Below, in pieces: positions 1,932 through 63,609 of a DNA stretch of 64,000 bases. How positions within the stretch are numbered: the first letter of the stretch is position 1; every line of letters starts with the position of its first letter. A model generated the notes under the pieces. That model was not told the origin of the DNA and did not search any database. It saw nothing but the letters and a program-made list of their open reading frames with translations. The position numbers and the translations under genes were made by a program. This DNA is from Beijerinckiaceae bacterium (lineage in GTDB: Bacteria; Pseudomonadota; Alphaproteobacteria; Rhizobiales; Beijerinckiaceae): positions 1 to 64,000 of the forward strand of contig JALOTF010000057.1 of NCBI GenBank assembly GCA_025458025.1, read 5' to 3'.

Positions 1932-2121
1932 TCCTCAAATCAACCTGTGATGGCCCACAAAGACGCCGGCCCGAAAGCAGGTGAGCCCAAACCAGTCTGC
2001 CTCATTGAGGAGGGCAGATAAGGTTGTCAACCGTCATTTTCCGAATAGGGTTCCTGCGCAAACCGATCTGCTCCAGTCCGCGCCGGTCTACAAAAAGGGA
2101 TGGCGGGAATGGCGTGTGTAA

Positions 2122-2141
2122 TTGTCATGTCTCCGTGACAA
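2122..2141. promoter_or_regulatory. Small dyad in the PKS-epimerase gap
   Basis: The 212-bp gap between the epimerase stop and the PKS start contains the inverted repeat TTGTCA-N8-TGACAA at 2122-2127 and 2136-2141. It could be an operator or a weak hairpin before the PKS gene. Nothing else is recognisable in this gap. Confidence 0.3.
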
Positions 2142-2143
2142 GC

Positions 2144-3157
2144 CTAATTGTAATGCCCGCGATACCATTCCACGAATTTTGGAATTCCCGCGTCCAGAGG
2201 GGTGGATGGCCGCTGGCCGGTCAGGGCCTGAAGCAAATCGGTATTTGCGAAGGTCTTCACGACATCACCCGGCGGGCGTGGTTTCAGCTCGCGCTTCGCG
2301 GGCACGCCCAGCGCCTTTTCCAGCGCATCCACCAGTGTCGTCACCTTTTCCGGCTGGCCCGCGCCGATATTCACGAGCCGGTAGGGGGCGACCGGGCTGA
2401 GGCTGTCGCCCGGGATTGCTGACATACCTTCGCGCGCATCGGCAGCCGGCGGCACGCAATCCACGAGACGGCGGATCGAGCCCACGAGATCGTCGATAAA
2501 GGTGAAATCGCGCCAGCTCTCGCCGTGGTTGAAAAGGGCAATGGGCCTGCCCTCGAGAATGGCGCGGGTGAACAGGAAATAGGCCATATCCGGTCGGCCC
2601 CACGGGCCATAGACCGTGAAGAAACGGAAGGCGGTCGTCGGCGTGCCGAAGAGATGCGCATAGGAATGCGCCATCAGTTCCATCGCGCCCTTGGAGGCGG
2701 CGTAAAGCGTGATGGGATGCACCGCGTGATCGGTTTCCTCAAAGGGGAATTTCTCGTTCGCCCCATACGCGGAACTGGTTGAGGCAAGCAGCAGGTGCTT
2801 CACCGGAAAGAACCGGCAGGCTTCGAGCATATTGAAGGAACCGACCATATTCGCGCCGAGATAGGCGCGCGGGTTCTCCACCGAATAGCGCACGCCGGCC
2901 TGCGCCGCGAGGTGGATGACTACCTCGGGACGAAAGCGCTCGAACAGGGCAAGAAGGCTCTCGTGATCTTCAAGCGAGGCATGGGTTTCGGAAAAACCGG
3001 GCTGGTCCTGGAGTTGCGCCAGCCGCCGATGCTTGAGGTTCACATCATAGTAATCGTTGACGGAATCGAGCCCGTGGACCTCATGCCCCTCACGCAGCAG
3101 CGCCCGCGCGGTGTGAAAACCGATGAAGCCGGCATGGCCTGTCACGAGGATGCGCAC
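2144..3157 (-). CDS. NAD-dependent sugar-nucleotide epimerase, UDP-glucuronate 4-epimerase type
   Basis: Extended short-chain dehydrogenase of 337 aa. The N-terminal Rossmann motif TGHAGFIG (residues 6-13) binds NAD, and the catalytic pair is Tyr152/Lys156 in YAASK. The N-terminal stretch with DSVNDYYDVNLK is typical of bacterial UDP-glucuronate 4-epimerases (LpsL/Cap family), which make UDP-galacturonate for capsule or LPS. The length matches that family. It is divergent from gmd across a 160-bp gap that must hold both promoters, and the PKS gene follows on the same strand. Substrate is by family resemblance only; a UDP-glucose or other hexuronate epimerase is possible. Confidence 0.88.
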   Translation of the reverse strand: MRILVTGHAGFIGFHTARALLREGHEVHGLDSVNDYYDVNLKHRRLAQLQDQPGFSETHASLEDHESLLALFERFRPEVVIHLAAQAGVRYSVENPRAYLGANMVGSFNMLEACRFFPVKHLLLASTSSAYGANEKFPFEETDHAVHPITLYAASKGAMELMAHSYAHLFGTPTTAFRFFTVYGPWGRPDMAYFLFTRAILEGRPIALFNHGESWRDFTFIDDLVGSIRRLVDCVPPAADAREGMSAIPGDSLSPVAPYRLVNIGAGQPEKVTTLVDALEKALGVPAKRELKPRPPGDVVKTFANTDLLQALTGQRPSTPLDAGIPKFVEWYRGHYN

Positions 3158-3317
3158 GGGAATGCTCCGGTTCCGGAAACAGGGAAAAGGGGAGCCAGAA
3201 AGGCCATCCCGGGTTAAGCGCTATGCCCTGTCGTTGGCAAGGGGCTCTGGCCTTTTGAGCCTCGAACCGTTATCGGACAGCCTCTTTCAGGCGAGCATGA
3301 CGGGGCGATGACGCGGC

Positions 3318-4385
3318 ATGACAAAAACGGCACTCATCACCGGGATTACGGGGCAGGACGGCGCCTATCTCACCGAATTGCTGCTCGCCAAGGGCTACCG
3401 CGTGCATGGGGTGAAGCGTCGTTCCTCGTCGTTCAACACCGCGCGGATCGATCACCTCTATCAGGATCCGCATGAGCGGGACGTGCGCCTGAAACTCCAT
3501 TATGGCGACATGACCGATGCGACGAACCTCATCCGCATTGTGCAGGAAACCCAGCCCGACGAGATCTACAATCTCGCGGCACAATCCCATGTGCAGGTGA
3601 GTTTCGAGACCGCCGAATATACCGCCAATGCCGATGCCATCGGCACATTGCGCCTGCTGGAGGCCATCCGCATTCTCGGGCTGGAGAAGAAGACGCGTTT
3701 CTACCAGGCCTCGACCTCCGAACTCTATGGCAAGGCGCAGGAAGTGCCGCAGAGCGAGACCACCCCGTTCTATCCGCGCAGCCCTTACGCTGCCGCGAAG
3801 CTCTATGCCTACTGGATCACGGTGAACTACCGTGAGGCCTACGGCATCCATGCCTCGAACGGAATCCTCTTCAATCACGAGAGCCCCCTGCGCGGCGAAA
3901 CCTTCGTGACGCGCAAGATCACGCGGGCCGTGGCCTCCATCCATCACGGCCTGCAGGATGTGCTCTATCTCGGCAATCTCGATGCCAAGCGCGATTGGGG
4001 CCATGCGCGGGACTATGTCGAGGGCATGTGGCGCATTCTCCAGCAGCCGCTCGGCGATGATTACGTGCTCGCGACCGGCGAAACCCACACCGTGCGCGAA
4101 TTCGTGGAGCGTGCTTTCGCCGAAACCGGCGTCACGCTGCGTTGGGAAGGCGCGGGCGTGGACGAGGTGGGGCGCGACGCGAAAACCGGCACGGTGCGCG
4201 TGCAGATCGACCCGCGCTATTTCCGCCCCACGGAAGTGGATCTGCTGCTGGGCGACCCCCGGAAGGCCCATGTCGTGCTCGGCTGGAAGCACACGACCAC
4301 CTTCCCCGATCTCGTGAAGGACATGATGCGTTCTGATCTCGAAACGGTGTTGCGCGAGCACAACCGGCAGGATCGCGATGCCTGA
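3318..4385 (+). CDS. gmd: GDP-mannose 4,6-dehydratase
   Basis: Converts GDP-D-mannose to GDP-4-keto-6-deoxymannose, the first step to GDP-L-fucose. The 355-aa protein has the NADP-binding motif [10 protein letters not shown] (residues 9-18), a [16 protein letters not shown] segment characteristic of Gmd, the catalytic Tyr156 and Lys160 in SPYAAAK, and the conserved [16 protein letters not shown] stretch. The stop overlaps the start of fcl by 8 bp, so the two are translationally coupled. Together they supply GDP-fucose (or GDP-rhamnose-type sugars) for the neighbouring polysaccharide or glycolipid genes. Confidence 0.97.
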
Positions 4386-5331
4386 GCCAATGTTCTCGCT
4401 CACTGGAAAGCGCGTCTATGTCGCGGGCCATCGCGGCATGGTGGGGCAGGCGCTGGTGCGGGCACTGAAGGCGCGCGGCGTCGAGCCGATCATCGCCACC
4501 CGCGCAGAGGTGGATCTCGAAAATCAGGCGCAGACCGAAGCTTGGTTTGCGAAGAACCGCCCGCAGGTCGTGCTGCTCGCGGCGGCCCATGTCGGCGGCA
4601 TTCTCGCGAACAACACCTATCCGCGCGATTTCCTCTACAAGAATGTGATGATCGCCGCGAATGTTATCGAGGCGGCGCATCGCAACGGCGTGGAGAAGCT
4701 CGTCAATCTCGGCTCCTCCTGCATCTATCCGAAATTCGCCGAGCAGCCGATCCGTGAGGAAAGCCTGCTGACCGGCAGCCTTGAGCCCACGAACGAGTGG
4801 TATGCCATCGCGAAGATCGCCGCGATCAAGCTCGCCCAGAGCTATCGCCGGCAATTCGGCGCGGACATGATTTCGCTGATGCCCTGCAATCTCTATGGTC
4901 CCGGCGACAATTACCACCCCGAGAACAGCCATGTGCTGCCAGCACTCATCCGCCGCTTCCACGAGGCGAAGGCGACGGGCGCGAAGGCTGTCACGCTCTG
5001 GGGCAGCGGCAAGCCGCGACGCGAATTCCTGTTCGTGGATGATCTCGCGGAAGGCACGCTTTTCGCGACCGAGCACTATTCCGGCGAGCCACATCTCAAT
5101 GTCGGCGCCGGCACGGATGTGACAATTGCAGAGGTTGCGGCCCTCATCGCGAAGGTCGTGGGCTTCGGAGGCACGCTGGAATACGACCGTTCGAAACCCG
5201 ATGGCACGCCGCGCAAGCTGATGGATGTCTCCAAACTCGCCGAACTCGGATGGCGTGCGGAAACCCCGCTGGAGGAGGGCATTCGTCTGGCCTATGACGA
5301 TTTTCTCTCGGGAGGCGGCCGGAACGGATAA
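4378..5331 (+). CDS. fcl: GDP-L-fucose synthase (epimerase/reductase)
   Basis: Bifunctional 3,5-epimerase and 4-reductase that turns the Gmd product into GDP-L-fucose. The 317-aa protein shows an NADP-binding GHRGMVG motif near residues 17-23, the SSCIYPK signature at about 113-119, and catalytic Tyr142/Lys146 in WYAIAK, as in WcaG/Fcl. It overlaps gmd and forms a two-gene operon. The following 290 bp have no gene except an IS21 remnant. Confidence 0.96.
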
Positions 5332-36685: not shown

Positions 36686-37066
36686 CTACGCGACGATCTT
36701 CTGAATGTAAGTTACCTTGGGCAGCGCCTCAAAATGCGCATCGCATGTGATCAGTTCGGCACCATAGGCCTGAGCTGTCGCGTAGACGATCGCATCGGCC
36801 GTGGCCAATCGGTGTTTCACAAAGATGTCGGCGGCTGATAGCGCAATCGGCGTATCGAGCGGCGCCAGAACGCAAAGCTGGGTGAAGGCGAGCACTTGGT
36901 CAGCCTTGTCCTCGCCAGCTTCGCGCCGAAGCCACTTAGCAAGTTCAAGCTGTACGATCGTTGGAACAAGCCACTCGTGACTGGGTGGAATGTGATCTCC
37001 AACGCGCTTTCCTGTCGATGACGCTGCAAGCCACTCGATCCATGCAGAAGTGTCAACAAGCCACAT
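36686..37066 (-). CDS. vapC: PIN-domain toxin VapC
   Basis: A 126-aa PIN ribonuclease: the acidic residues are in MWLVDTSAWIEWL (Asp5), IVQLELAKWL (Glu), and RLATADAIVYATA (Asp), followed by AELITCDAHF (Asp). The start ATG at 37066 overlaps the antitoxin stop in a TAATG arrangement. VapC toxins cleave tRNA or rRNA when the antitoxin is degraded. Confidence 0.93.
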   Translation of the reverse strand: MWLVDTSAWIEWLAASSTGKRVGDHIPPSHEWLVPTIVQLELAKWLRREAGEDKADQVLAFTQLCVLAPLDTPIALSAADIFVKHRLATADAIVYATAQAYGAELITCDAHFEALPKVTYIQKIVA

Positions 37067-37503: not shown

Positions 37504-38289
37504 TCACGCTATCAATTTCTCGCGCTTCAAAATCAGTGAGGCCGTGACGACCAGAGCTGCCACGCCCGCAATCAGCAGGGTGGAGATCGCGTTGATCTCC
37601 GGGCTCACGCCGAGCCGCACGGCAGAATAGATGCGCATCGGCAGCGTCGTTGCGCCCGGTCCGGTCGCAAAGCTCGCGATGACGAGATCATCCAGCGACA
37701 GCGTGAAGGCGAGCAACCAGCCGGCGATGATTCCTGGAAGCGCCAGCGGCAGCGTGATGGTCAGCGTCACGCGCCACGGGCTCGCGCCGAGATCCTGCGC
37801 CGCTTCCTCCAGACTGCGGTCGAGCGTGGCCAGCCTCGCCTGCACGATCATCGTGACGAAGCAGAGGGTCAGCGTGGCATGCGCCAGCGTGACGGTGATG
37901 GCGCCGCGCTCGACATTCAGCGCCACAAAAAGCAGCAGCAGCGAAAGGCCGGTGATCACCTCGGGCATCACCATGGGTGCGGCAATGAGCCCGCCGAAGA
38001 GAAGCTTCGCGCGGCCCGGTCGCGCGCGCTCCAGTGCCAGCGCAGCCAGCGTGCCGAGCACCGTAGCGATGGTCGCCGAGGCCATTGCAACGCCCAGCGA
38101 AAGCAGGGCCGCATCCTTCAGTGCCTGATTGCTGAGCAGGCTCGCATACCATTGCGTGGAAAAACCGCCCCAGACCGTCACCAGCCTTGAGGCGTTGAAA
38201 GAATAGAGGATGAGGATGCCAATCGGCACATAAAGGAACAGCAGGCCGGCAATGAGCGCCACGGAATGGATAAGACGGAAGCCCTTCAT
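37504..38289 (-). CDS. Polyamine-type ABC transporter permease (PotC/PotI-like)
   Basis: A 261-aa permease with about six membrane helices (GLLFLYVPIGILILYSFNASRL first). The EAA loop is SLEEAAQDLGASPWRVTLTITLPLALPG near residues 165-192. Start at ATG 38289, overlapping the upstream permease gene by 4 bp. Last gene of a four-gene leftward operon. Substrate by family: putrescine, spermidine or a related polyamine. Confidence 0.9.
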   Translation of the reverse strand: MKGFRLIHSVALIAGLLFLYVPIGILILYSFNASRLVTVWGGFSTQWYASLLSNQALKDAALLSLGVAMASATIATVLGTLAALALERARPGRAKLLFGGLIAAPMVMPEVITGLSLLLLFVALNVERGAITVTLAHATLTLCFVTMIVQARLATLDRSLEEAAQDLGASPWRVTLTITLPLALPGIIAGWLLAFTLSLDDLVIASFATGPGATTLPMRIYSAVRLGVSPEINAISTLLIAGVAALVVTASLILKREKLIA

Positions 38290-39176
38290 CGCGCGGTCTC
38301 TTTCCGGCCGGCGAAGCCGCGCAGCAGCATCATCGGCAGGATGACAAAGGCGAGGAGACTCACGGCCACGGCGGAGGCCAGCGGCCAATCGCGGTTCGAG
38401 AAGAATTCGGTCCAGAGTACGCGGCCGATCATCAGTGTTTCCGAGCCGCCAAGGAGGTCGGGGATCACGAATTCGCCGATGCCCGGCACGAAGACGAGAA
38501 AACACCCCGCGAGAATGCCGGGCTTCGCCAGCGGTATGGTGATGGTGAGGAAGCGCGTGAGCGGTTTCGCGCCAAGGTCCGCCGCAGCCTCGATGAGGCT
38601 GCGATCCATCTTTTCGAGCACCGCATAGATCGGCAGCACCATGAAGGGCAGGTAGGAATAGACCATGCCGATCAGCACGGCAGTCTCGGTGTTCAGGAGC
38701 CGCAAGGGCTCGCTGGTGAGGCCGATGGTTATCAGCACGCGATCCAGCACGCCCTCGGGCCGGAGGATCGCAATCCACGCATAGACGCGGATGAGAAACG
38801 AGGTCCAGAACGGCAGGATCACCAGCAGAACGAGCAGGTTTTGCCAGCTCTTGGGCGCGCGGGTGATGGCATAGGCCAAGGGAAAGCCGATCAGTAAAGC
38901 GATCAGCGTGGCCGTGCCGGCGATACGGATCGCGGTGAGAAAGGCATTGAGATAGAGGCTGTCTTCCCAGAGAAGCCTGAACGCCTCGACATCGAGGCCC
39001 GCGAGGAATTCGCGGATCTGCCCGAAGCCGATCCAGTGTGGCGCATAGGGCGGCACGGCTTGCGCTGTATCGGACAGCGACATCCGCAGCACCATCAGGA
39101 AGGGCAGCACGAAGAACGCCGCGAGCCACAGGAGTGGCGCAAGCGCGGCGATCCGGGCGCGGCGGTCGGTCCTCAC
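38286..39176 (-). CDS. Polyamine-type ABC transporter permease (PotB/PotH-like)
   Basis: A 296-aa permease. GTG at 39176 is chosen because it overlaps the ATPase stop (GTGA) and places the first helix (ALAPLLWLAAFFVLPFLMVLRMSL) near the N-terminus. The EAA loop SLIEAAADLGAKPLTRFLTITIPLAKPG is near residues 195-225. Forms the membrane pair with the next gene. Confidence 0.9.
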   Translation of the reverse strand: MRTDRRARIAALAPLLWLAAFFVLPFLMVLRMSLSDTAQAVPPYAPHWIGFGQIREFLAGLDVEAFRLLWEDSLYLNAFLTAIRIAGTATLIALLIGFPLAYAITRAPKSWQNLLVLLVILPFWTSFLIRVYAWIAILRPEGVLDRVLITIGLTSEPLRLLNTETAVLIGMVYSYLPFMVLPIYAVLEKMDRSLIEAAADLGAKPLTRFLTITIPLAKPGILAGCFLVFVPGIGEFVIPDLLGGSETLMIGRVLWTEFFSNRDWPLASAVAVSLLAFVILPMMLLRGFAGRKETAR

Positions 39177-40330
39177 GATGCACCATCCAGCAGGATCGGC
39201 GCCTCGATATCCCACGAGAGCCAGACGCGATCATCCCAGCCGATCGGCCGCTCCGAGCGCCGCGTGCGATTGGTGATGCCGACGCGCACGATCGTGCCAT
39301 CCGCCAGCTTCACCTGCACCATGGTCATGTCGCCGAGATAGCCGATATCCCAGACGATGCCCTCGACGCGGTTCACGGTTTCATGCGGCGGGGTGAAGCC
39401 GAGCGTGATCTTCTCGGGCCGGAGGCCGACATCCACGCGCGTGCCGGGCGCAGGCTTGTCACCCTCGTCATCGAGTTCGATGGTGCCGATGGTGGGGTGG
39501 AGAAGCGTCACCACCTCGCCTTCGACCTTCGTGACAATCGCCTCAAAAATGGTGATATCGCCCACGAATTCGGCGACCGCCCGCGTTTCCGGTGCCTCGT
39601 AGATCTCCGCAGGCGTGCCAACCTGCGCGAGCCGCGCCTTCTGCATCACGCCGATGCGATGAGCCATGGTCATGGCTTCATCCTGATCATGCGTGACCAT
39701 GAGGAAGGCGAGGCCGAGCTTTTCCTGCAGGGCCACCAACTCGTATTGCGTCTCCTCGCGCAGCTTGCGGTCGAGCGCGCCGAGGGGCTCATCGAGCAGC
39801 AGGATGCGCGGACGCTTGGCGATGGCGCGTGCGAGCGCCACGCGCTGCCTCTGCCCGCCGGAGAGCTGATCCGGCCTGCGCTTGCCGAAATCCTGAAGGC
39901 GCACCAGATTAAGAACCTCTTCCACGCGCGCGGAAATCTCGGCCTTCGGAAGGCCCTCCTGCTTCAGGCCATAGGCGATGTTCTCCGCGACATTCATGTG
40001 CGGAAACAAGGCGTAGGACTGGAACATGAGGTTCGTGGGCCGCTGATGTGCGGGCACGCCGAGCACGCTCTTGCCGTCGAGAAGGATGTCGCCGGAGGTC
40101 GGCTCCTCGAAGCCCGCGAGCATGCGCATCAGCGTGGTCTTCCCGCAGCCAGAGGGGCCGAGCAGCGCAAAGAACTCACGGGGGTAGAGGTCGAGATTCA
40201 CCCCCGCCACGGCTTCCACCGCGCCGAAGGCCTTCCGGACATTCCGGAAAGAAACGAGCGGCTTCGCGCCAGGGTCAAGCCACGGCGCGAAGCTCGATCG
40301 CACCGGGCCTGCGGCGCGTTGCGTGCTCAT
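39173..40330 (-). CDS. Polyamine-type ABC transporter ATPase (PotA/PotG-like)
   Basis: A 385-aa ATPase: Walker A GPSGCGKTT (about residues 53-61), signature LSGGQRQRVALARAI, Walker B ILLLDEPLGALD, then a C-terminal TOBE region from about 255 (VTLLHPTIGTIELDDEG). Length and TOBE domain fit PotA-type importers. 31 bp separate it from the binding-protein gene. Confidence 0.93.
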   Translation of the reverse strand: MSTQRAAGPVRSSFAPWLDPGAKPLVSFRNVRKAFGAVEAVAGVNLDLYPREFFALLGPSGCGKTTLMRMLAGFEEPTSGDILLDGKSVLGVPAHQRPTNLMFQSYALFPHMNVAENIAYGLKQEGLPKAEISARVEEVLNLVRLQDFGKRRPDQLSGGQRQRVALARAIAKRPRILLLDEPLGALDRKLREETQYELVALQEKLGLAFLMVTHDQDEAMTMAHRIGVMQKARLAQVGTPAEIYEAPETRAVAEFVGDITIFEAIVTKVEGEVVTLLHPTIGTIELDDEGDKPAPGTRVDVGLRPEKITLGFTPPHETVNRVEGIVWDIGYLGDMTMVQVKLADGTIVRVGITNRTRRSERPIGWDDRVWLSWDIEAPILLDGAS

Positions 40331-40361: not shown

Positions 40362-41462
40362 TCATCGGCCGGTCTTCACGCGCGTCCAGAGGCGGTTCAC
40401 CGCCCGCTGGGTTTTCTCGTCGAAGGGGGTGATGGTGTAGAGACGCGTGAGCGTTTCGGCACTCGGATAGATGCCCGGATCCTTGAGGATTTCCTGCGCG
40501 ACATGCTTCTGCGCCGAGAGGTTCGGTGAGGCATACTGGATGAAGACCGAGTTGCTGGCCGCCACTTCCGGGCGGTTGAGGTAGTCGATCAGCTTGTAGG
40601 CGGCTTCCTTGTTCTGGGCATCCGCCGGGATCACGAAGCTGTCGAACCACATCAGCGCGCCTTCCTTGGGGATGGCATAGCCCACTTCAACGCCGTTCTT
40701 CGCTTCCGCCGCGCGCTTCTTTGCCTGAAGCACGTCGCCCGAATAGCCAACGGCGAGGCAGATATCGCCATTCGCGAGCGCCGTGATGTATTCCGAGGAA
40801 TGGAATTTCTGGATGTGCGGCTTGATCTTCGCCAACAGATCCGCCGCCTTGCGCAGGTCGCCCTCGGCCTTGGAGTCCGGGTTGAGGCCGAGATAGCGCA
40901 GCGCCGCCGGAAAGAGTTCTTCCGTTGCATCCAGTACGTGCACACCGCAGGAGGCGAGCTTCGAGACCTTCGCCGGGTCGAACAGGATCGACCAGCTATC
41001 CACCACAGCATCGGCCCCGAGGCGCTCGCGCACCTTCTTCAGGTTATAGCCGAGGCCCGTGGTGCCCCACATGTAGTTGACCGCGAACTTGTTGCCCGGA
41101 TCGTATTTCGCCAGTCGCCCGGTGATATCCGGCCACATATGCGTGAGGTTCGGCAGCTTCGCCTTGTCGAGTTCCGTGTAGAGCTTTAGCGGAATATGCC
41201 GCGGCAGGAAGGACGCCGTGACCACCACGAGATCATACCCGCTCTTGCCGGTGACGAGCTTCGTCTCCACCGTCTCCATCTGGTCGAAGGTGTCATAGAT
41301 CACTTTGATGCCGGTTTCCCGTGTAAAGGCATCGAGCACCGCCGGATTGATGTAATCCGACCAGTTATAGACGCGCACTTCGCCCTGCGCCTTCGCAGCA
41401 AGGGCCGAAAGCATCAGCGCCAGACCGGCCATCATGCCGCGCCCGATCGAGAAGCCGTTCAT
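40362..41462 (-). CDS. Polyamine-type periplasmic binding protein (PotF-like)
   Basis: A 366-aa secreted protein. The start at 41462 (MNGFSIGRGMMAGLALMLSALAAKAQG) gives a good signal peptide and a GGAGG SD; the frame extends to 41516 without a leader. The mature start VRVYNWSDYINPAVLDAFTRETGIKVIYDTFD is the classic PotF/PotD opening, and MWFDSFVIPADAQN a family word. First gene of the operon; the 180-bp gap to its right is shared with the TPP riboswitch transcript. Confidence 0.92.
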   Translation of the reverse strand: MNGFSIGRGMMAGLALMLSALAAKAQGEVRVYNWSDYINPAVLDAFTRETGIKVIYDTFDQMETVETKLVTGKSGYDLVVVTASFLPRHIPLKLYTELDKAKLPNLTHMWPDITGRLAKYDPGNKFAVNYMWGTTGLGYNLKKVRERLGADAVVDSWSILFDPAKVSKLASCGVHVLDATEELFPAALRYLGLNPDSKAEGDLRKAADLLAKIKPHIQKFHSSEYITALANGDICLAVGYSGDVLQAKKRAAEAKNGVEVGYAIPKEGALMWFDSFVIPADAQNKEAAYKLIDYLNRPEVAASNSVFIQYASPNLSAQKHVAQEILKDPGIYPSAETLTRLYTITPFDEKTQRAVNRLWTRVKTGR

Positions 41463-41639
41463 CGCATTTAACCTCCATGGGAAAAGGGGCGGTCTTTGCC
41501 GCACACCCTTAAACAATAGCGCCGTTGGCCCGCGAGAAAAGATGGAAGCGGCTTGCCCATGCCTAAAATCTGATCATCCACATCTGTTGCGCGAGCCGAA
41601 TTGACGGCTGGGGCCCGCGCGCCTATCTCAGAGGCATGC

Positions 41640-41762
41640 CAAGGGGAGCCCCGGCCAGCCGTTTTTCGCGGTTTTCGGGGCTGAGATGATCGCGAAATCC
41701 GGATTCCCGGAGGTGCGGCGACCCTTTGAACCTGATCCGGATCATGCCGGCGAAGGGATGGC
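41640..41762 (+). ncRNA. TPP riboswitch (THI element)
   Basis: The conserved core words are present in order: GGGGAGCCCCG at 41643 paired with CGGGGC before GGCTGAGA (41679-41686), a variable stem, ACCCTTTGAACCTGAT (41721-41736), CCGG-ATCATG-CCGG, and CGAAGGGA (to 41758). These are the pyrimidine- and pyrophosphate-sensing halves of the thiamine pyrophosphate aptamer. About 75 bp follow before the start of the binding-protein gene at 41836. A weak pairing of GTCTC (near 41810) with the SD region GGAGAT could be the translation-blocking platform. Confidence 0.93.
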
Positions 41763-41835
41763 GCGAATGGCTCCCGCGGGGCCTTCGCACTCTCAAGCCT
41801 TGGGTCCGGGTCTCTGCCTCGAACGGAGATCCGCC

Positions 41836-42861
41836 ATGTCGTTCCTGAATCACCTCACGCGCCGCGCGGTGCCTGTCTTGCTGGCGAGCCTGCTGGCCAT
41901 GCCAGCGTTTGCGCAAACCGCGAAGACCCAGCTTCAGGTCTACACGACCCTGCTTCCCGAGAGCCTCGCGGAGTTCAAGGGGGCCTTCGAGACGGAAAAT
42001 CCGAATATCGAGATCGTCTGGCGCCGCGAATCGACCGGCACGCTCACCGCGCGCATCATCGCCGAGAGTGAGCAGGCGCGGGGCGATGTCATCTGGGGCC
42101 TTGCGGTGACCTCGATGCTCGATTTCAAGCGGCGGGGTATTCTCGAACCCTATGCGCCGAAGAACCTCGCGGCCCTGCGTCCGAATTTCCGTGATGCCGA
42201 GGCCGTGCCGCATTGGATCGGCATGGAAGCCTGGGTGGCGGCCATCTGCTTCAACACCATCGAGGCGGGAAAGCAGAACCTGCCGCGCCCGGAAAGCTGG
42301 TTCGACCTGTTGAACCCGGTTTACAAGGGCAAGATTGTTTTCTCCGATCCGGCTGCCTCGGGCACCGGCTATTTCCACGTCTCCGCCTTCCTCCAGCTTT
42401 TCGGCGAAGCGAAGGCGTGGGAATTCATGGAAGGGCTCCACAAGAATATCGCGGTCTACGAGCCTTCGGGCACCCGGCCCTGCCGCCATGCCGCGACCGG
42501 CGAATATCCGATCGGCATCTCCTATGAACTCGCGGGCATGATGGAGAAGGACAAGGGCGCGCCCATCGACATCCTCGTGATGAAGGAGGGCGGCGGATGG
42601 GACATGGATACCGCTGCGATCCTCAAAGGCACGAAGAACCTCGATGCCGCGAAGACGCTGATGGATTTCGCCGCGAGCCGGAAGGCGAATGAACTCTACG
42701 CCAAATGGGTGCCGCTCACGGCCATCGAAGGGGTCGCGCCGCCACCGAAAAACTACCCGGCCGGTGTCGCAGCCTCGATGATCAAGAACGATTTCGCCTG
42801 GGCCATGGAGAACCGCGACCGCATTCTCCAGGAATGGCAGAAGCGCTTCGCGAAGAAGTGA
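41836..42861 (+). CDS. Periplasmic solute-binding protein of the 2-aminoethylphosphonate/iron type, TPP-riboswitch controlled
   Basis: A 341-aa secreted protein with signal peptide (MSFLNHLTRRAVPVLLASLLAMPAFAQT). The mature part (LQVYTTLLPESLAEFKGAFETENPNIEIVWRRESTGTLTARI) is paralogous to the 2-aminoethylphosphonate-binding protein at 59716-60747: shared words include SGTGY, GWDM, KGTKNL and KKANELY/RKANELY, and both end in a NRxRIL.EW motif. Unlike that paralogue it has no permease or ATPase beside it and is under a TPP riboswitch. It may bind thiamine, a thiamine precursor or a phosphorylated pyrimidine, using a transporter encoded elsewhere (inference). SD CGGAGAT precedes the ATG at 41836. 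Confidence 0.85.
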   Translation: MSFLNHLTRRAVPVLLASLLAMPAFAQTAKTQLQVYTTLLPESLAEFKGAFETENPNIEIVWRRESTGTLTARIIAESEQARGDVIWGLAVTSMLDFKRRGILEPYAPKNLAALRPNFRDAEAVPHWIGMEAWVAAICFNTIEAGKQNLPRPESWFDLLNPVYKGKIVFSDPAASGTGYFHVSAFLQLFGEAKAWEFMEGLHKNIAVYEPSGTRPCRHAATGEYPIGISYELAGMMEKDKGAPIDILVMKEGGGWDMDTAAILKGTKNLDAAKTLMDFAASRKANELYAKWVPLTAIEGVAPPPKNYPAGVAASMIKNDFAWAMENRDRILQEWQKRFAKK

Positions 42862-43623: not shown

Positions 43624-44349
43624 TCACGCGCCGAAACTTCCGCCCGGCGAGAAATGCGAGACGATCTGATGCCGCGCGGCCGGATAGTGCAAGGTGACGG
43701 CTGTCACGATCACGCCACCCTGCCAGGTGCGCCGATCAATCACGAGGCAGGCCGCGCCCTTCGCCATGGCGAGACGTCGCGCGAGAGCCGCTGAGGCAAT
43801 ATCCGCACGGATGATATGCTCGGCATCGGTCCATGGCACCTCGTTCAGAAGCCAGGTGCCGGGTGGCGTCTCGGAGAAATCCGCGCTCACCGCATCGGGC
43901 ACGATGGCAAGATTCATGAGGCGGTTTTCCACCGCGTAGGGGAGGGCGTCGGCGTAATGCACGAGTTCCAGTGCGAGGATCTCCGCCACGGGCTGGCCGA
44001 GACGCGCGGCCTCCGCTGCATCCGGCGCCCGCTTCGCGCGCGACAGGATTTCGCAGCGATAGGCGCGCCCGGAAGCGGTGATTTCCGCCTTGAGATCGTG
44101 GATCTTCAGCACGGTCTGTGCGTTGCGCGGCATGGCCACCTGCGAGCCCGCACGCCGCCGCCGCTGGATCAGCCCCTCGCTGGTGAGCGCGGAGAGCGCC
44201 TTGCTCACGGTCATGCGCGAGCAGCCGTAGAGTTCTTTGAGTTCATGCTCGGAGGGGATGGCATCGCCCGGCCGCAATTCGCCCGAGGCGATGCGATTCT
44301 GGATATCGCGCCGGATCTCGAGATAGCGGGGGAGGGCGATGTCGTCCAA
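43624..44349 (-). CDS. hutC: HutC-type GntR repressor of histidine utilisation
   Basis: A 241-aa regulator: winged helix at residues about 8-75 (YLEIRRDIQNRIASGELRPGDAIPSEHELKELYGCSRMTVSKAL) and a UTRA ligand domain behind it, which senses urocanate in HutC proteins. Downstream of hutF on the same strand, 15 bp apart. Two copies of a TGTxTAGACA palindrome near hutI and near the ABC transporter are its probable operators. Confidence 0.92.
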   Translation of the reverse strand: MDDIALPRYLEIRRDIQNRIASGELRPGDAIPSEHELKELYGCSRMTVSKALSALTSEGLIQRRRRAGSQVAMPRNAQTVLKIHDLKAEITASGRAYRCEILSRAKRAPDAAEAARLGQPVAEILALELVHYADALPYAVENRLMNLAIVPDAVSADFSETPPGTWLLNEVPWTDAEHIIRADIASAALARRLAMAKGAACLVIDRRTWQGGVIVTAVTLHYPAARHQIVSHFSPGGSFGA

Positions 44350-44364
44350 AGGCGCGGTTCCCGG

Positions 44365-45717
44365 TCAGATCGTGCTGGCGAGGCGGTGGATGACCTGCCG
44401 ATAGGCTTGAGCCAAGGCCTCATGCCTGTGATGCCGGCCCTTGTCCACGACCAGTTTGCCCGCCGCATAGACCTTGTCGATCAAGGCATGGTCACCGGCG
44501 AAGATGTAGGAATCCAGCGCGTAATCGCCATCGCGGCCCGCGAGATCGGGCGCATTGGGGTTGAGCGTCACAAAGTCAGCCCGCGCGCCAACAGCAATGC
44601 CCATGGCTCGCCCGAGCGCCTGCGCCCCGCCCGCCAGCGCGCGATCATAAAGCGTGCGTCCGGTGGAAGCACCCGGCAAACTCATCGCGTTGCGCACGCG
44701 CCGCGTGAGGCGCTGGCTGTATTCCAGCATACGCAATTCGCCGGGCGCGGTGATCTCGACATTCGAATCTGTCCCGACGCCGAAGCTCCCGCCCGCCGCG
44801 AGAAAATCCGTGGCTGGAAACACGCCATCGCCCAGATTCGCTTCCGTGATGGGGCAGAGGCCCGCAACGGCACCGGACTTTGCCAGCGCCAGCGTTTCGC
44901 TCTCCGTGAGATGCGTCGCGTGGATCAGGCACCAGCGCTCATCCACCGGCTGATGTGCGAGAAGCCATTCGACGGGACGCTGGCCGCTCCAGGCGAGGCA
45001 ATCCTGCACTTCCTTCATCTGCTCGGCGACATGGATATGCACCGGACCGATGGGATAGGCCGAGACAAGCGCATTCAATTCATCTGGCGTCGCCGCGCGC
45101 AGGGAATGCGGCGCGAAACCCAGCACCGCATGCGGCAGGCGCGAAATCGCGCGCCCGCTCGCTTCCATGAGGCGCGCGAAGCCATGGAGATCGGAGAGGA
45201 AACGCCGCTGGCCCGGATTGGCCGCCTGCCCACCAAAGCCGCCATGGGCATAGAACACTGGCAGAAGCGTGAGCGCGATGCCCGTTTCCGCCGAGGCCGA
45301 AGCGATGCGCACGGCATGCTCGGCGGGGTTGGCATAGGCCGTGCCATCCGGCTGATGATGCAGGTAGTGGAACTCGCCCACGGCGGTAAATCCGCGCTCC
45401 AGCATCTCCATGAAGGCGAAAGCGGCAATCGCCTCCACATCCTCGGCGGTGATTTCCCCGAGGAAGCGATACATCACCTCGCGCCAGGTCCAGAAGCTGT
45501 CATCCGATTGGCCGCGTCGCTCCGCAAGGCCCGCCATGCCGCGCTGGAAGCTGTGGGAATGCAGGCTCGCGAGGCCAGGAAGCGCAATCGCGCCATCACT
45601 CGCCACGGCCTCCACGCCGGTCTCCACCCGCGTGATCAGCCCCGCCTCGTGATGAACCGCAACCCCGCGCGCCCAGCCCATGGGCAGCAGCGCCTGGCCA
45701 AAATGGAGCACTGGCAT
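44365..45717 (-). CDS. hutF: Formimidoylglutamate deiminase
   Basis: A 450-aa amidohydrolase that converts N-formimino-glutamate to N-formylglutamate and ammonia, the five-step branch of histidine degradation completed by HutG. Metal motif HSHSFQRGM near residue 53 and the [11 protein letters not shown] segment near 310 match HutF. Divergent from hutI across 79 bp containing a HutC-like operator. Confidence 0.94.
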
Positions 45718-45772
45718 CGCTTCATTCTCCGTCTCTCAAATTCCGCTGGACTTTAGCGCGAGCGCCTCATTA

Positions 45773-45782
45773 TGTATAGACA
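45773..45782 (+). promoter_or_regulatory. HutC-like operator between hutF and hutI
   Basis: TGTATAGACA, a near-palindrome (TGT-TA-ACA), 14 bp upstream of the hutI start and in the shared hutF/hutI promoter. It differs by one base from the perfect TGTCTAGACA at 54661. Confidence 0.7.
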
Positions 45783-45796
45783 AAAGAGGTGATGTC

Positions 45797-47005
45797 GTGA
45801 CAGCGGATCATGTGTTTCGCAACGCCCGTCTCGTGACCATGGCCGGGGAGGGCATGGGCGCAATCGAACGCGGCGCTGTGGTCGTCGCGGGCGGGCGGAT
45901 CGCCTATGCCGGCCCAGATAGCGAGTGTCCCACGGGTCTTTCCGGCATCGAAAGCACGGATTGCGAGGGCCGCGTCATCACCCCCGGCCTCATCGATTGC
46001 CACACGCATCTCGTGTTTGGCGGCAACCGCGCCCGGGAATTCGAGATGCGCCTTGATGGTGCAAGCTATGAGGAGATCGCCCGCGCCGGAGGCGGCATTC
46101 TTTCCACCGTGCGCGCCACGCGCGCCGCAAGCGAGGATGACCTCGTTGCTTCCGCTTTGCCGCGTCTTGATGCGTTGCTGGCGGAGGGTGTCACCACAAT
46201 CGAGATCAAGTCCGGCTATGGCCTTACTGTCGCGGATGAGGTGAAGACCCTTCGCGCCGCGCGCAAACTCCGCACGATGCGGCCTGTTTCCGTGACGACC
46301 ACGGCACTTGGCGCGCATGCGATCCCACCGGAATTTGCGGGCCGCTCCGCTGATTACATCGCGCATGTCATCAACGAGCAACTGCCGGCTCTCGCCGCTG
46401 AAAACCTCGCGGATGCGGTGGATGCCTTCTGCGAGGGCATCGCCTTTTCGCCGGATGAGGTGGACCGGCTCTTCACGGCCGCGCGGAGCCTTGGCCTGCC
46501 GGTGAAGCTGCACGCGGACCAGCTCTCGAACCTCCATGGCGCGGCACTCGCGGCCAAGCACGGCGCGCTCTCGGCGGATCATCTGGAATATACCGATGCT
46601 GAGGGTGCTGCTGCGATGGCCAAGGCCGGAACGGTGGCGGTTCTTTTGCCCGGCGCCTTCTATTTCCTGCGCGAGAAGCAGCTTCCGCCCATCGCGGCGT
46701 TCCGCGCGGCGGGCACGCGCATGGCCCTCGCGACCGATTGCAATCCCGGCTCGTCGCCGCTCACATCGCCCCTGCTCACCATGAACATGGCCGCGACCCT
46801 CTTCCGCATGACCGTTTCGGAATGCCTCGCGGGCTTCACGCGGGAGGCGGCGCGCGCGCTTGGCAAGCTCGGCGAAACCGGCACGCTGGAAGTCGGGAAA
46901 TGGGCCGATCTCGCGATCTGGTCGGTCGAAAGCCCGGCAGAACTCGTCTATCGCATGGGGTTCAACCCGCTCCATGCGCGCATCTGGAGGGGGAAACCAT
47001 GCTGA
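45797..47005 (+). CDS. hutI: Imidazolonepropionase
   Basis: A 402-aa amidohydrolase, third step of histidine degradation (imidazolonepropionate to formiminoglutamate). Metal ligands are in [12 protein letters not shown] (near residue 70), GAHAIP, HADQL and [14 protein letters not shown] start at 45797 is chosen: SD AGAGGTGAT lies just before it and [15 protein letters not shown] is the family N-terminus. Overlaps hutH by 7 bp. Confidence 0.95.
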
Positions 47006-48525
47006 CGATCCATCCCGGCACGGTGCCGTTGGCCGACTGGCGCGCGATCTACCGTGGCGCTGCCTTCCGGCTTGATGCCGCCTGCCGCGAGAAGGTGGCC
47101 GCGAGTGCGGCCTCCATCGCGCGCATCCTCGCGAAGGGCGAGCCGGTCTACGGCATCAATACTGGCTTCGGGAAGCTCGCGAGCGTGCGCATCGGCGACA
47201 ATGATCTCGCGACGCTCCAGCGCAACATCGTGCTGAGCCACGCTGCGGGTGTGGGCGAGGCCATGCCGAAGCCCATCGCGCGTCTGATGATGGCGCTGAA
47301 GCTCGCGAGCCTCGCGCAGGGCGCCTCCGGCATCCGCCTCGAAACCCTGGATCGGCTGGAAACGCTGCTTCAGCGAGACCTCATCCCCGTGGTGCCGGCG
47401 CAAGGTTCGGTGGGCGCTTCGGGCGATCTCGCGCCGCTCTCGCACATGACCGCCGCGATGATCGGCGTGGGGCAGATCGACACGCCAAACGGGCGTAAAC
47501 CCGCTGCCAAGGCTCTCGCAGAAGCGGGCCTTGCTCCGCTGGAACTCGGCGCGAAGGAGGGACTCGCGCTGCTGAACGGCACGCAGTTTTCCACCGCGTA
47601 TGCCCTTGCGGGCCTGTTCGAGGCGGAAGCGCTTCTGCATGCCGCACTCGTCACGGGTGCGCTTTCCACCGATGCCGCGCGCGGCTCGGATACGCCGTTC
47701 GATCCGCGCATCCATGCGCTTCGCGGCCATCGCGGGCAGATCGACACGGCGGATGCCTTGCGTCGCCTGATGGCGGGTTCAGCGATCCGCGCCTCGCACC
47801 TCACGGGCGATGATCGCGTGCAGGACCCCTATTGCCTGCGCTGCCAGCCGCAGGTGATGGGCGCAGCTTTGGACGTGCTGCGGCAGGCGGCGGCGACGCT
47901 GGGCACCGAAGCCAATGGCGTTTCCGATAACCCGCTGATCTTCGCCGACGCCGATGAGGCGCTCTCTGGCGGGAATTTCCACGCCGAGCCGGTGGCTTTC
48001 GCGGCCGACATGATCGCGCTCGCCATCTGCGAGATCGGCTCGCTCTCCGAGCGCCGCGTGGCGATGCTGGTGGACCCGGCGCTCTCCGGCCTGCCGGCCT
48101 TCCTCACGCCAAAGCCGGGGCTCAATTCCGGCTTCATGATCCCGCAGGTCACGGCAGCGGCGCTTGTCTCCGAGAACAAGCAGAAGGCCTACCCTGCGAG
48201 TGTGGATTCCATCCCCACCTCTGCCAATCAGGAAGATCACGTCTCCATGGCCGCGCATGGCGCGCGCCGGCTGATGCCGATGGTCGAGAATGCGCGCAGC
48301 GTGGTGGCGATCGAGGCACTCGCGGCCTGTCAGGCGATCGATTTCCACGCGCCGCTCGCTTCCAGCCCCGCTCTGGAAGCGGCGAAAGGCGCGTTGCGCG
48401 CGCTTGTGCCAACACTTCAGGAAGACCGGCATTTCCACCCGGATATCGAGGCCGCGCTCGATCTCGTGCGCTCCGGCGCGCTGGTGAAGGCGGCTGCCCT
48501 GCCGCTGCCCGGTTTGGAGGCCTGA
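46999..48525 (+). CDS. hutH: Histidine ammonia-lyase
   Basis: Deaminates histidine to urocanate. The 508-aa enzyme has the Ala140-Ser141-Gly142 triad in [14 protein letters not shown] that cyclises into the MIO prosthetic group, [10 protein letters not shown] near 51-60, and [14 protein letters not shown] near 412. The ATG at 46999 has an SD GGAGGGGG and the family N-terminus [11 protein letters not shown]. Confidence 0.97.
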
Positions 48526-48528
48526 GCC

Positions 48529-49374
48529 ATGTTCACGTTGCCTGAAAACTGGCTCACGATCCGGCGTGGTAACGCCCCGCTGGTCATCAGCCTGCCGCAT
48601 ACCGGGCGCGACCTGCCGCCGGAGCTTGAAGCCCGCGTCGTCTCGCCCTGGCTCGCGCGGAAGGATTGCGACTGGTGGATCGACAATCTCTATGCCTTCG
48701 CAGCAGATCTCGATGCCACGATCATCCACACCTCGCTTTCGCGCACGCTGATTGACGTGAATCGCGATCCCTCTGGCGTGTCGCTCTATCCCGGACAGGC
48801 GACGACGGAACTCTGCCCCTCCACGACTTTCGACGGCGAGCCGCTCTACAAGGTGGGGCAGGCGCCGGATGCGGCGGAGATCGCGGTGCGGCAGAAGCTT
48901 GCTTTCGATCCCTATCACGCGGCTCTCGCGGGCGAGATCCAGCGCCTGCGCGGCCAGAATTCCCGCGTGGTGCTCTATGATTGCCACTCGATCCGCTCGG
49001 TCATCCCCCGGCTTTTCGAAGGCGAGTTGCCGCATTTCAACATCGGCACGAATTCTGGTGCGGCCTGCGATGCACGCCTCACGGCTGAAATCGAAAAGCT
49101 CTGCGATTCAAGCGGCATGAGCCGTGTCACCAACGGGCGCTTCAAGGGCGGTTACATCACCCGGAACTACGGCAAGCCGGAAAACGGTGTTCATGCCGTG
49201 CAGATGGAACTCGCCTGCCGGGGCTACATGCGCGAGCCCATTTCCCGTGCGAACCAGCCCGATGTGAGCGAGGCCAACTGGCCCAGCACCTACGATCCCG
49301 CTTATGCCGCGCCGATCCGCGCGACGCTTCAATCCATTCTCCAAGCCTGCCTTGCCTTCGCGAAAGGGGCCTGA
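48529..49374 (+). CDS. hutG: N-formylglutamate deformylase
   Basis: A 281-aa hydrolase giving glutamate and formate, the last step after HutF. Conserved [11 protein letters not shown] near residue 23, [18 protein letters not shown], and [13 protein letters not shown] identify the N-formylglutamate amidohydrolase family. Two to three bases separate it from hutH and hutU. Confidence 0.95.
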
Positions 49375-49376
49375 CC

Positions 49377-51041
49377 ATGACCCGTCTCGACAATTCCCGC
49401 GTGATCCGCGCGCCGCGTGGCCTCGATCTCTCGGCCAAGTCCTGGCTGACCGAAGCGCCGCTGCGCATGCTCATGAACAATCTCGATCCCGATGTGGCCG
49501 AGAAGCCCGGCGAACTCGTGGTCTATGGCGGCATTGGCCGCGCCGCGCGTGACTGGGACAGCTTCGACAAGATCGTGGGCGCGCTGAAAAAGCTGGAGGC
49601 GGATGAGACGCTGCTCGTCCAATCCGGCAAGCCGGTGGGCGTGTTCCGCACCCATGCCGATGCACCGCGCGTGCTCATCGCCAATTCGAACCTCGTGCCG
49701 CGCTGGGCGACCTGGGAGCATTTCAACGAGCTCGATAAGAAGGGCCTGATGATGTACGGCCAGATGACCGCTGGCTCGTGGATCTATATCGGCACGCAGG
49801 GCATCGTTCAGGGCACCTACGAAACCTTCGTGGAGATGGGCCGCCAGCATTATGGCGGCGATCTCTCGGGCCGCTGGATCCTCACGGCAGGTCTTGGCGG
49901 GATGGGTGGCGCGCAGCCGCTCGCCGCGACCATGGCTGGGGCCTCCTGCCTCGCGGTGGAATGCCGGCCCTCGTCGATCGAGTTCCGCCTGCGCACGGGC
50001 TATCTCGATACCAAGGCGGACACGCTGGATGAAGCGCTGGAGATCATCCGCCGTGCCTCAGCCGAGAAGAAGGCGATCTCGGTCGGTCTCCTCGGCAATG
50101 CGGCGGATATCTTCCCCGAACTCGTGCGCCGCGGCATCCGCCCGGATTGCGTGACCGACCAGACTTCCGCGCATGATCCCGTGCACGGCTACCTGCCGCA
50201 GGGCTGGACGCTGGCGGATTGGGAAGCCAAGCAGGCCAATGATCCCAAGGCTGTGACCGCCGCCGCGAAAAAGAGCATGGCCGCGCATGTCCGCGCGATG
50301 CTCGATTTCCACAAGATGGGTGTTCCCACGGTCGATTACGGCAACAATATCCGCCAGATGGCACTCGAGGAAGGCGTGGCGGATGCCTTCGATTTCCCCG
50401 GCTTTGTACCGGCCTATATCCGCCCGCTCTTCTGCCGCGGGATCGGCCCCTTCCGCTGGTGCGCGCTCTCGGGCGATCCGGAGGATATCTATCGCACCGA
50501 CGAGAAGGTGAAGGAGCTGCTGCCGGATAACAAGCACCTCCACAACTGGCTCGACATGGCCAAGAAGCGCATCAAGTTCCAGGGCCTGCCCGCGCGCATC
50601 TGCTGGGTGGGCCTGGGGGATCGGCATCGCCTCGGCCTCGCCTTCAACGAGATGGTCGCGAAGGGTGAACTCAAGGCCCCCATCGTGATCGGGCGAGACC
50701 ACCTCGATTCTGGCTCCGTCGCCTCGCCCAATCGTGAGACCGAAGCGATGCGCGACGGCTCGGATGCGGTGTCCGATTGGCCGCTGCTGAATGCGCTGCT
50801 CAACTGCGCGAGCGGTGCCACCTGGGTCTCGCTGCATCATGGCGGCGGCGTGGGCATGGGCTTTTCGCAGCATTCGGGCATGGTCATCTGCTGCGACGGC
50901 ACGGAAGATGCCGCGCGCCGCATCGCCCGCGTGCTCTGGAACGACCCGGCGACGGGCGTAATGCGCCATGCCGATGCGGGCTACCAGATCGCGCTGGATT
51001 GCGCCCGCGAGCACCAGCTGAACCTGCCGGGCATCCTGTGA
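49377..51041 (+). CDS. hutU: Urocanate hydratase
   Basis: A 554-aa enzyme, second step: urocanate to imidazolonepropionate. The NAD-binding [19 protein letters not shown] segment lies near residues 175-195, followed by the conserved [14 protein letters not shown] and [15 protein letters not shown], the latter containing the substrate-binding loop. Overlaps hutD by 4 bp. Confidence 0.97.
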
Positions 51042-60817: not shown

Positions 60818-61929
<1,112 letters not shown>

Positions 61930-61933
<4 letters not shown>

Positions 61934-63609
61934 GTGCAAACGCCTCCTTCACGCGGGATCGCGAGGCGCGGGTGGCGACCCTGCTGCTCGCGGGGCTCGC
62001 CTTCCTGCTGGTGCTGCTGATCGCAGTGCCGCTCTGGTCGCTGCTGTCGAAATCCGTACAGAACAGCAACGGGCAGTTCGTCGGGCTCGCGAATTTCGCG
62101 CGCTACATCTCCACGCCCGCGCTTGTGGCTTCGCTGTGGAACTCGATCTGGGTGTCGAGCCTTGTCGCGCTGATCGTGGTGCCGCTTGCGTTCCTTTATG
62201 CCTATGCGCTCACGCGCAGCCGCATGCCGGGCAGAGGCCTGTTCATGGCCGTGGCGATGACCCCGCTTTTTGCGCCCTCGCTGCTTTCGGCCATCTCGCT
62301 GATCTACATTTTCGGCAATCAGGGCTTCCTCAAGAGCTGGCTTTTCGGCGCGAGCATCTATGGCCCGGTGGGCATCGTGCTGGCGGAAGCGGTCTATTGT
62401 TTCCCGCATGCGCTGATGATCATGGTGACGGCCTTGCGCCTCGCCGATGGACGCCTTTATGAGGTGGCGGAGGCGCTTGGCACTTCGAAATCCCGCGTGT
62501 TCTTCACGGTCACTTTGCCCGGTGCGCGTTATGGCCTGATCAGTGCGATTTTCGTGGTGTTCACGCTGGTCATCACCGATTTCGGCATTCCCAAGGTGAT
62601 CGGCGGGCAATTCAACGTGCTCGCGACGGACGCCTACAAGCAGATCGTGGGGCAGCAGAATTTCGAGATGGGCGCGGTGGTCGGCCTTATCCTGCTCATG
62701 CCCGCGATCTTCGCCTTCTTCGTGGACCGGCAGGTGCAGAAGAAGCAGGTGGCTTTGCTTTCCGCCCGCGCTGTGCCCTATGAGCCGAAGCCGAACGGGA
62801 AGCGTGATTTTGCGCTTCTGGCCTTCTGCCTCGTGATTGGCGGCCTGCTGATCGGCATGCTCGGCATGGCGATCTGGGCGAGTTTCATCCGCTATTGGCC
62901 TTACAATCTCACCTTCACGCTGAATAACTACAACTTCGCGAATTTCGATCCGCAAGGTTGGGGCGCCTATCTGACCTCACTGAAAATGGCGGGCCTCACC
63001 GCGATTTTCGGCACGACAATCGTGTTTTTCGGCGCCTATCTCGTGGAGAAGACCAAGCCTGCTCCTGCCTTGCGTGGCTTCGTGCATTTTCTCGCCATGC
63101 TGCCGATGGCCGTGCCGGGGCTGGTGCTGGGCTTGGGCTATGTGTTCTTCGTCAATGCGCCGTGGAACCCGCTGGGCATCTTCTACGGCACGCTGACAGT
63201 GCTGGTGGCGAACACGGTCGCGCATTTCTACACGGTCGCGCATATCACCGCCGTGACCCAACTGAAGCAGATCGATGCCGAATTCGAGAGCGTTTCCGCC
63301 TCGCTGAAGGTGCCTTTCTGGGTGACCTTCCGGCGCGTGACAGTGCCGATCTCGCTGCCGGCGGTGCTGGATATCGCGGTCTATCTCTTCGTGAATGCGC
63401 TGACGACCGTCTCCGCCGTGATCTTCCTCTATGGTCCCGGCACGAAGCTCGCCTCCATCGCGATTGTTCACATGGACGAGATGGGCGCAGTGGCCGCTGC
63501 GGCAGCGATGGCCACCTGCATCGTCTTCACGGCCATGGCGGTGAAGCTGCTGCATCTCGCGCTGGATCGCGTCGTCTTCGCGCGCTTCCAGGCATGGCGG
63601 AAGCGATGA
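61930..63609 (+). CDS. 2-Aminoethylphosphonate ABC transporter permease, two fused MetI domains
   Basis: A 559-aa permease made of two half-transporters in one chain. The first half has its EAA loop at about 175-200 (YEVAEALGTSKSRVFFTVTLPGARYG), and the second at about 455-485 (EFESVSASLKVPFWVTFRRVTVPISLPAVL). About twelve helices in total. This fused design is typical of the putative 2-aminoethylphosphonate and ferric-iron importer families. Overlaps the ATPase gene and the following pbfA by 4 bp each. Confidence 0.92.

Follow-up and report, generated by a model that had tools for sequence, protein, structure and literature searches.

We propose that an orphan periplasmic binding protein of a Beijerinckiaceae bacterium is repressed by a TPP riboswitch, binds a phosphorylated vitamin B1 vitamer (most likely TMP or TPP), and borrows the ATPase and permease of its 2-aminoethylphosphonate (AEP) paralogue, PhnT2-PhnU2; we put the probability of this reading at about 0.58. 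The gene belongs to a real, conserved, and coherent branch of TPP-controlled, AepX-like orphan binders in alphaproteobacteria that mostly lack ThiG, and the most likely role of the branch is B1 acquisition. The features of the window (the whole 64,000-nucleotide stretch that was analyzed) on which the proposal rests are as follows.

41632..41775, + strand: TPP riboswitch aptamer (RF00059), 63.7 bits against a gathering threshold of 54.3
41807..41833, + strand: hairpin burying the Shine-Dalgarno sequence, stem of 10 bp, shared by five of the seven genus leaders, with a putative regulatory function
41836..42861, + strand: orphan gene for a periplasmic binding protein of the phnS2 family (341 aa; a proposed binder of B1 phosphates), TIGR03261 413.6 bits
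59716..60747, + strand: paralogue phnS2 (AEP-type) in the phosphonate cluster, TIGR03261 473.7 bits
60860..61933, + strand: phnT2 ATPase, proposed shared partner, TIGR03265 503.6 bits (cut-off 457.7)
61930..63609, + strand: phnU2 permease, proposed shared partner, TIGR03262 794.5 bits (cut-off 593.25)

An earlier note on this DNA had read a TPP aptamer from its core motifs, GGCTGAGA at 41679 and GAACCTGAT at 41728. Both motifs are present at these positions, and an Rfam scan of the 64 kb window confirmed the aptamer: the RF00059 match covers the whole model (positions 1-105, E 3.7e-10) and is the only Rfam match in the window at the gathering threshold. The ATG of the orphan gene (41836) lies 60 bp past the end of the covariance match on the same strand, and the longest ORF (41686-42861) extends back through the riboswitch. 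The protein scores above the NCBIfam TIGR03261 (phnS2) cut-off of 392.75 bits, and its N-terminus, MSFLNHLTRRAVPVLLASLLAMPAFAQ, was judged by eye to be a Sec signal peptide. The genome itself (97% complete) holds one other TPP match, which precedes thiC, thiM, thiE, and thiD, is cut by a contig end, and scores below the cut-off.

The leader suggests how the riboswitch might act. A 10-bp hairpin covers the Shine-Dalgarno sequence ahead of the start codon in five of the seven genus leaders, two of which have a G-U pair where the others have A-U, and when these five leaders were folded the hairpin had z values of -2.3 to -4.1 against shuffled sequences. Neither a terminator nor a sigma-70-type promoter was found by consensus in 41480-41900, and in one genome (G141) the start codon and the aptamer match overlap each other. 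Taken together, these observations make translation the likelier level of control, and, judging from the leader sequences, the hairpin probably represents the expression platform in its off state. We also considered an on-state pairing between the leader and the 3' half of the aptamer, which would release the ribosome-binding site. In six of the seven genus leaders, 53 to 102 of 300 shuffled sequences reached the same duplex energy (4 of 300 in L158), and so we make no claim for this part of the mechanism.

To define conservation within the genus we used 61 genomes (the genome itself and 60 relatives), taking proteins with at least 75% identity as orthologues. Seven close orthologues were found, every one in the genus. 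Comparison by coordinates placed an RF00059 match above the cut-off directly upstream of all seven, on the same strand, and near none of the 23 AEP-type genes (242 to 367 bits) in the same genomes, in a search run with stricter Infernal filters. The riboswitch is thus kept across 75-93% identity and three neighborhoods: pot and hut genes (four genomes), a phosphonate cluster (one genome), and trxA-/addAB-like genes identified by eye (two genomes). Only the riboswitch and the lone gene are constant among them; the neighborhood comparison leaves out the rows for hutH, phnT2, and the ORF at 36686.

The earlier note held that no permease or ATPase lies beside the gene. This proved incorrect, because a divergent Pot-type ABC operon adjoins it upstream (potF-like gene, 40362-41471; ATPase, 39173-40330; two permeases, 37504-39215). 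It is therefore conceivable that the orphan feeds B1 vitamers to this transporter and not to PhnT2-PhnU2, and the Pot-type set adjoins the gene in three other genus genomes as well (G004, G007, and G010, in which the contig ends inside potF). However, it does not adjoin the gene in G003, G006, or G014, it was not seen at loci outside the genus, and its proteins are more distant from the orphan than is the system of the paralogue. With a Pot-type neighbor at only four of the seven genus loci, we rejected this transporter as the partner, and we regard the idea as very improbable. In G003, the orphan lies near a phosphonate cluster that has its own phnS2.

On its 3' side the orphan gene is followed by a convergent gene. 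The segment 42865-43551 (- strand) encodes a CDP-alcohol phosphatidyltransferase that is closest to phosphatidylcholine synthase models (205 bits against cut-offs of 400) and falls just below the Pfam cut-off. A histidine utilization cluster occupies 43624-51041, in which hutC, hutF, hutG, and hutU exceed their NCBIfam cut-offs and hutI and hutH were recognized by eye; four of the seven genus loci have this neighborhood. In the window and in the genus contexts the orphan is a lone gene, with no dedicated ATPase, permease, or phosphonate genes, and no such partner recurred at the 44 named loci described below.

The paralogue 18 kb away, which the earlier note assigned to an AEP ABC system, does belong to a complete phosphonate cluster and is about 50% identical to the orphan. 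The order of the cluster is phnA (phosphonoacetate hydrolase), phosphonoacetaldehyde dehydrogenase, phnS2, phnT2, phnU2, with each gene above its NCBIfam cut-off; the true start of phnT2 is near 60860, and the ORF call begins at 60638. We take AepX to be TIGR03261 and PhnU2-PhnT2 to be the AepVW part of the AEP importer.

Orphans of this type also occur beyond the genus. A scan with two short peptide patterns, run on a collection in which 84,980 species are represented by a single genome each, yielded 44 loci, 6 of them in the genus and 38 outside it. The latter come from Reyranella, from records labelled Enhydrobacter, and from other Rhodospirillales-like records, most of which are MAGs, and stand at 56 to 67% identity. 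RF00059 lies directly upstream at 13 of the 44 loci, namely the 6 genus loci and 7 of the 38 outside (L136, L142, L152, L153, L154, L157, and L159). The expectation that orthologues would lie behind TPP riboswitches therefore held for all seven genus orthologues and for these seven others, and failed at the remaining 31 loci, above all in Reyranella and its relatives, where no riboswitch reached the gathering threshold; as these loci were checked only by that threshold and the two core motifs, decayed riboswitches may have been missed.

A tree was built from 59 proteins (43 of the 44 loci, the two copies of the window, and 14 AEP-type relatives; the partial gene L160 was left out). The 44 orphan rows separated from the 15 AEP-type rows with an SH-aLRT of 99 (a quick method, without bootstrap), and no orphan fell among the AEP-type proteins. 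The orphan clade spans several alphaproteobacterial lineages, and riboswitch-linked copies occur at five places in it; G141, from the class sample described below, represents a sixth group. Recurring neighbors of the Reyranella-type loci are plsY (PF02660), an amidohydrolase gene, dprA, topA, and an MFS gene, and some of these loci also have a divergent peptide-type ABC set. The same-strand neighbors that recur at the 44 loci include neither a permease nor an ATPase gene. A FAD-linked oxidase gene (PF01565/PF08031, berberine-bridge-type) lies near the orphan at nine of the 44 loci, none of them riboswitch-linked, and is the next gene on the same strand in at least seven of the nine.

The loci L122-L151 (Reyranella and relatives) carry riboswitch-less orphans, except for L136 and L142, mostly in ThiG-positive genomes. 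Inside one riboswitch-less group of Reyranella, the TPP riboswitch of L136 (locus 728-1873) sits behind an upstream segment common to its relatives, and it may be either a recent gain or a retention where the relatives lost theirs. If the orphan acts as an adaptor for PhnT2-PhnU2 (see below), the riboswitch-less Reyranella copies would be adaptors of this kind that escaped B1 control, or else would mark an intermediate step in the shift of ligand.

We also examined an even draw of 385 genomes from the class, in which scores against profile A4 split orphan-type from AEP-type proteins: the former (10 genes in 9 genomes) scored 545 to 637 bits, and the latter no more than 481 bits. This sample is only partly independent, as G183, G274, G369, and G375 are also in the earlier sets. 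Of the 10 orphan-type genes, 5 (that of the window included) stand behind an RF00059 match; none of the 21 AEP-type loci does, nor does any of 10 further AEP-type loci from relatives. These results bear on the possibility that the orphan still binds AEP or another phosphonate and that its riboswitch reflects chance or an indirect link. Such a reading accommodates the TIGR03261 score, the anchoring residues that orphans share with AEP-type proteins (see below), and the 31 of 44 loci at which no riboswitch was found. It fits poorly with a riboswitch that is present at all genus orthologues and in several other lineages, never occurs at the AEP-type genes examined (23 in relatives, 21 in the class sample), and is tied to the loss of ThiG, and with a separate clade with changed conserved residues. 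We consider continued phosphonate binding improbable.

The tie to ThiG, and so to synthesis of the thiazole half of B1, was assessed through ThiG as the one thiazole synthase sought, counted as present when a match exceeded 300 bits. Of the 17 genus genomes, 6 have full ThiG. All six are among the 10 non-carriers of the orphan; the 7 carriers hold at most fragments below 24 bits. The other four genus genomes lack both ThiG and the orphan, and these would have to cope otherwise. Outside the genus, 37 genomes were searched (38 loci, L156 being left out because it is in the same MAG as L152). Full ThiG was missing in 6 of the 7 riboswitch-linked genomes and present in 25 of the 30 unlinked ones, which suggests that the riboswitch-less copies may do something else. 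Overall, ThiG is missing in 13 of 14 riboswitch-linked genomes. Fisher tests gave p values of 2e-6 overall and 0.0012 without the genus, with kinship ignored; these values overstate the association, because the lineages are few and related (the linked copies amount to about five or six) and many genomes are MAGs.

At the low Pfam cut-off (23 bits), 33 of the 37 genomes outside the genus have a ThiG match, but 7 of the 33 are pieces of 23 to 34 bits that cover less than half of the profile. Five of the six riboswitch-linked genomes that we counted as lacking ThiG hold such pieces, and the sixth (G081) has a match of 20 bits. We read these short pieces as probably belonging to other barrel proteins; the fragment in G068 is a cross-match inside its own ThiE. 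There are exceptions in both directions. L136 (G075) has both the riboswitch and ThiG, and five of the 30 unlinked genomes (G064, G068, G083, G090, and G094) lack ThiG; one of these, G083, bears at the end of a contig a riboswitch and a gene that by eye is ThiO-like.

ThiB is a thiamine binding protein that captures B1 compounds. We rejected it as the protein doing this job in the genus, because none of the 17 genomes has a ThiB match over the cut-off. The genus genomes that lack ThiG thus also lack ThiB over the cut-off, which leaves a gap where their source of thiazole should be, and our proposal, if true, places a transport gene in that gap of B1 metabolism.

Other candidate transport genes stand behind TPP riboswitches in some of the genomes with riboswitch-linked orphans. 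In L181 (G081, 1183-5261, - strand) and L180 (G095, 744-4584, + strand), TPP riboswitches precede branched-chain-amino-acid-type ABC genes with a Peripla_BP_6 binding protein (the L180 permeases were identified by eye). Both genomes lack ThiG and have a riboswitch-linked orphan, and these sets are possibly a further B1-vitamer transporter. In L177 and L178 (G091 and G092, from about 718 and 755), a TPP riboswitch precedes a YkoF / ABC_cobalt / ATPase set that resembles the ykoFEDC ECF transporter (L178 by eye); these genomes hold riboswitch-linked orphans too.

A role of the orphan in B1 acquisition is well supported by the genomic context, and it agrees with the proposal of the earlier note that the protein captures thiamine or a pyrimidine or thiazole precursor. 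The gene content of the genomes and the conserved residues of the protein sharpen that proposal to a phosphorylated vitamer. Thiamine pyrophosphokinase (TPK), the sole thiamine kinase sought, was found in none of 25 genomes, with control genomes positive. ThiM was found in none of the seven riboswitch-linked genomes outside the genus, but it is also missing in six of seven unlinked genomes tested, so its absence is not special to the linked ones; ThiE is missing in two of the seven. In agreement with the suggestion that orthologues might lie next to thi genes, the orphan follows thiL on the same strand in three genomes of one genus-level group. In G183, the riboswitch lies between thiL and the orphan, and in G295 and G464 the orphan lies about 0.2 kb and 0.9 kb behind thiL, in both without a riboswitch at threshold.

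In P5PA, the phosphate of pyridoxal phosphate is held by T37, S147, G148, T149, and S183 (PMC8427247, excerpts). Mapped by hand, these anchors correspond to T67, S175, G176, T177, and S211 of the orphan, each of which is found in at least 93% of the 44 orphan rows and at least 90% of 10 AEP-type rows (rows L019-L023 were left out of the 10). The residues that set the orphans apart from AEP-type proteins are T38, V91, E131, F180, A194, M249, and D258, and Glu131 stands where P5PA has Tyr103, which contacts the ligand ring (PMC8427247, excerpts). The association with missing ThiG, the absence of ThiM in the linked genomes outside the genus, the absence of TPK, and the conserved phosphate anchors speak for a B1 vitamer that carries phosphate and against free pyrimidine or thiazole. 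On these grounds, and with thiL beside the gene in one group, the ligand is more probably TMP or TPP, both phosphate esters of B1, than thiazole in its free form; HET-P is possible.

An unphosphorylated ligand, thiamine or the thiazole alcohol HET, would also fit a role in B1 supply. Many TPP-controlled transporters carry free vitamers. Imported HET would be usable in the genus, which has ThiM, ThiE, ThiD, and ThiC: ThiM exceeds the Pfam cut-off in all 12 genus genomes tested, and against TIGR00694 it gives split matches, short of the cut-off, in 16 of 17, and so free thiazole would also serve there. It is the linked genomes outside the genus, with no ThiM, and the lack of TPK, the anchors, and thiL beside the gene that make a free ligand unlikely.

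The earlier note had suggested that the orphan might share the AEP transporter. In the class sample, 8 of the 9 genomes that bear an orphan also have an AEP-type gene, compared with 37 of the 376 genomes that bear none (p 1.6e-7), with the best few candidates per genome scored; the exception, G274 (88% complete), bears an orphan and has no AEP-type gene that we could see. In all 10 genomes examined (7 from the class sample and 3 from the genus), phnT2 and phnU2 adjoin the AEP-type gene. The co-occurrence fits a need for the parental transporter and thus the suggested sharing, which we infer, although common descent or lifestyle could also have caused it. There is a precedent in P5PA, an AfuA paralogue for pyridoxal phosphate, which supported growth only together with AfuC (PMC8427247, excerpts).

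Taken together, our results partly support the earlier interpretation and suggest the following mechanism, in which the direction and level of control, the ligand, and the shared transporter are deduced from the observations above. When TPP is ample, the riboswitch would turn down translation of the orphan, probably by letting the hairpin bury the ribosome-binding site. When TPP is short, the protein would be made and exported and would capture a phosphorylated B1 compound, most likely TMP or TPP, which it would hand to PhnU2-PhnT2, the permease and ATPase of its paralogue. ThiL would then convert TMP to TPP. Such a device would serve strains that lack synthesis of the thiazole half (no ThiG). 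More tentatively, the stand-alone AepX paralogue may act as an adaptor that, during B1 starvation, temporarily retargets PhnT2-PhnU2 to thiamine phosphates and thereby offsets the lost thiazole branch.

If the proposal is true, some of the proteins that automatic annotation names AEP binders belong to a vitamin group which the NCBIfam cut-off fails to split off, and this would bear on surveys in which AepX is taken to indicate phosphonate use. The orphan would also join P5PA as another binder retuned to a phosphorylated vitamin while parts of the parent transporter are shared. Among the titles and abstracts listed in a search of the open-access literature, none described this arrangement of a TPP riboswitch and an aminoethylphosphonate gene, and the two papers that touch on aminoethylphosphonate, riboswitches, and thiamin alike are studies of Paenibacillus and C. 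difficile; the early comparative genomics of thiamin regulation was outside its scope.

Comparison with known systems sets the orphan apart from each of them. ThiB/SfuA (TIGR01254) would have a similar job, but the orphan scores 57.6 bits against that model, below the cut-off of 93.4. PhnS2/AepX, the AEP binding protein of AepXVW (PMC8316502, excerpts), belongs to the same NCBIfam family over the cut-off and has the phosph(on)ate-anchoring loops in common with the orphan, whereas the orphan forms a separate clade, has a TPP riboswitch, and comes without a dedicated permease, ATPase, or phosphonate gene. In a predicted model of middling confidence (pLDDT 74.6), the best structural match is AfuA (Z 29.3, 28% identity), and P5PA matches at Z 25.9; among the 50 matches listed there is no ThiB entry, which has no bearing on likeness to ThiB. 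A ligand co-purified with P5PA and with AfuA. AfuA is a hexose-phosphate binder (4r72-4r75; PMC4546632, excerpts) whose phosphate-site positions are kept in the orphan, but its sugar-binding His205, Asp206, and Glu229 correspond, by hand mapping, to Leu232, Ala233, and Asp256. P5PA (6wce, Actinobacillus) keeps its own permease and lacks only an ATPase, its ligand is vitamin B6, and the excerpts of PMC8427247 mention no riboswitch; it shares with the orphan the fold, the phosphate anchors, and, as proposed here, the character of a retuned paralogue that borrows part of its parent's transporter. Finally, the riboswitch is a full-length member of RF00059, but where the usual targets of that family are a synthesis gene or a complete transporter, the predicted target here is a lone binding protein.
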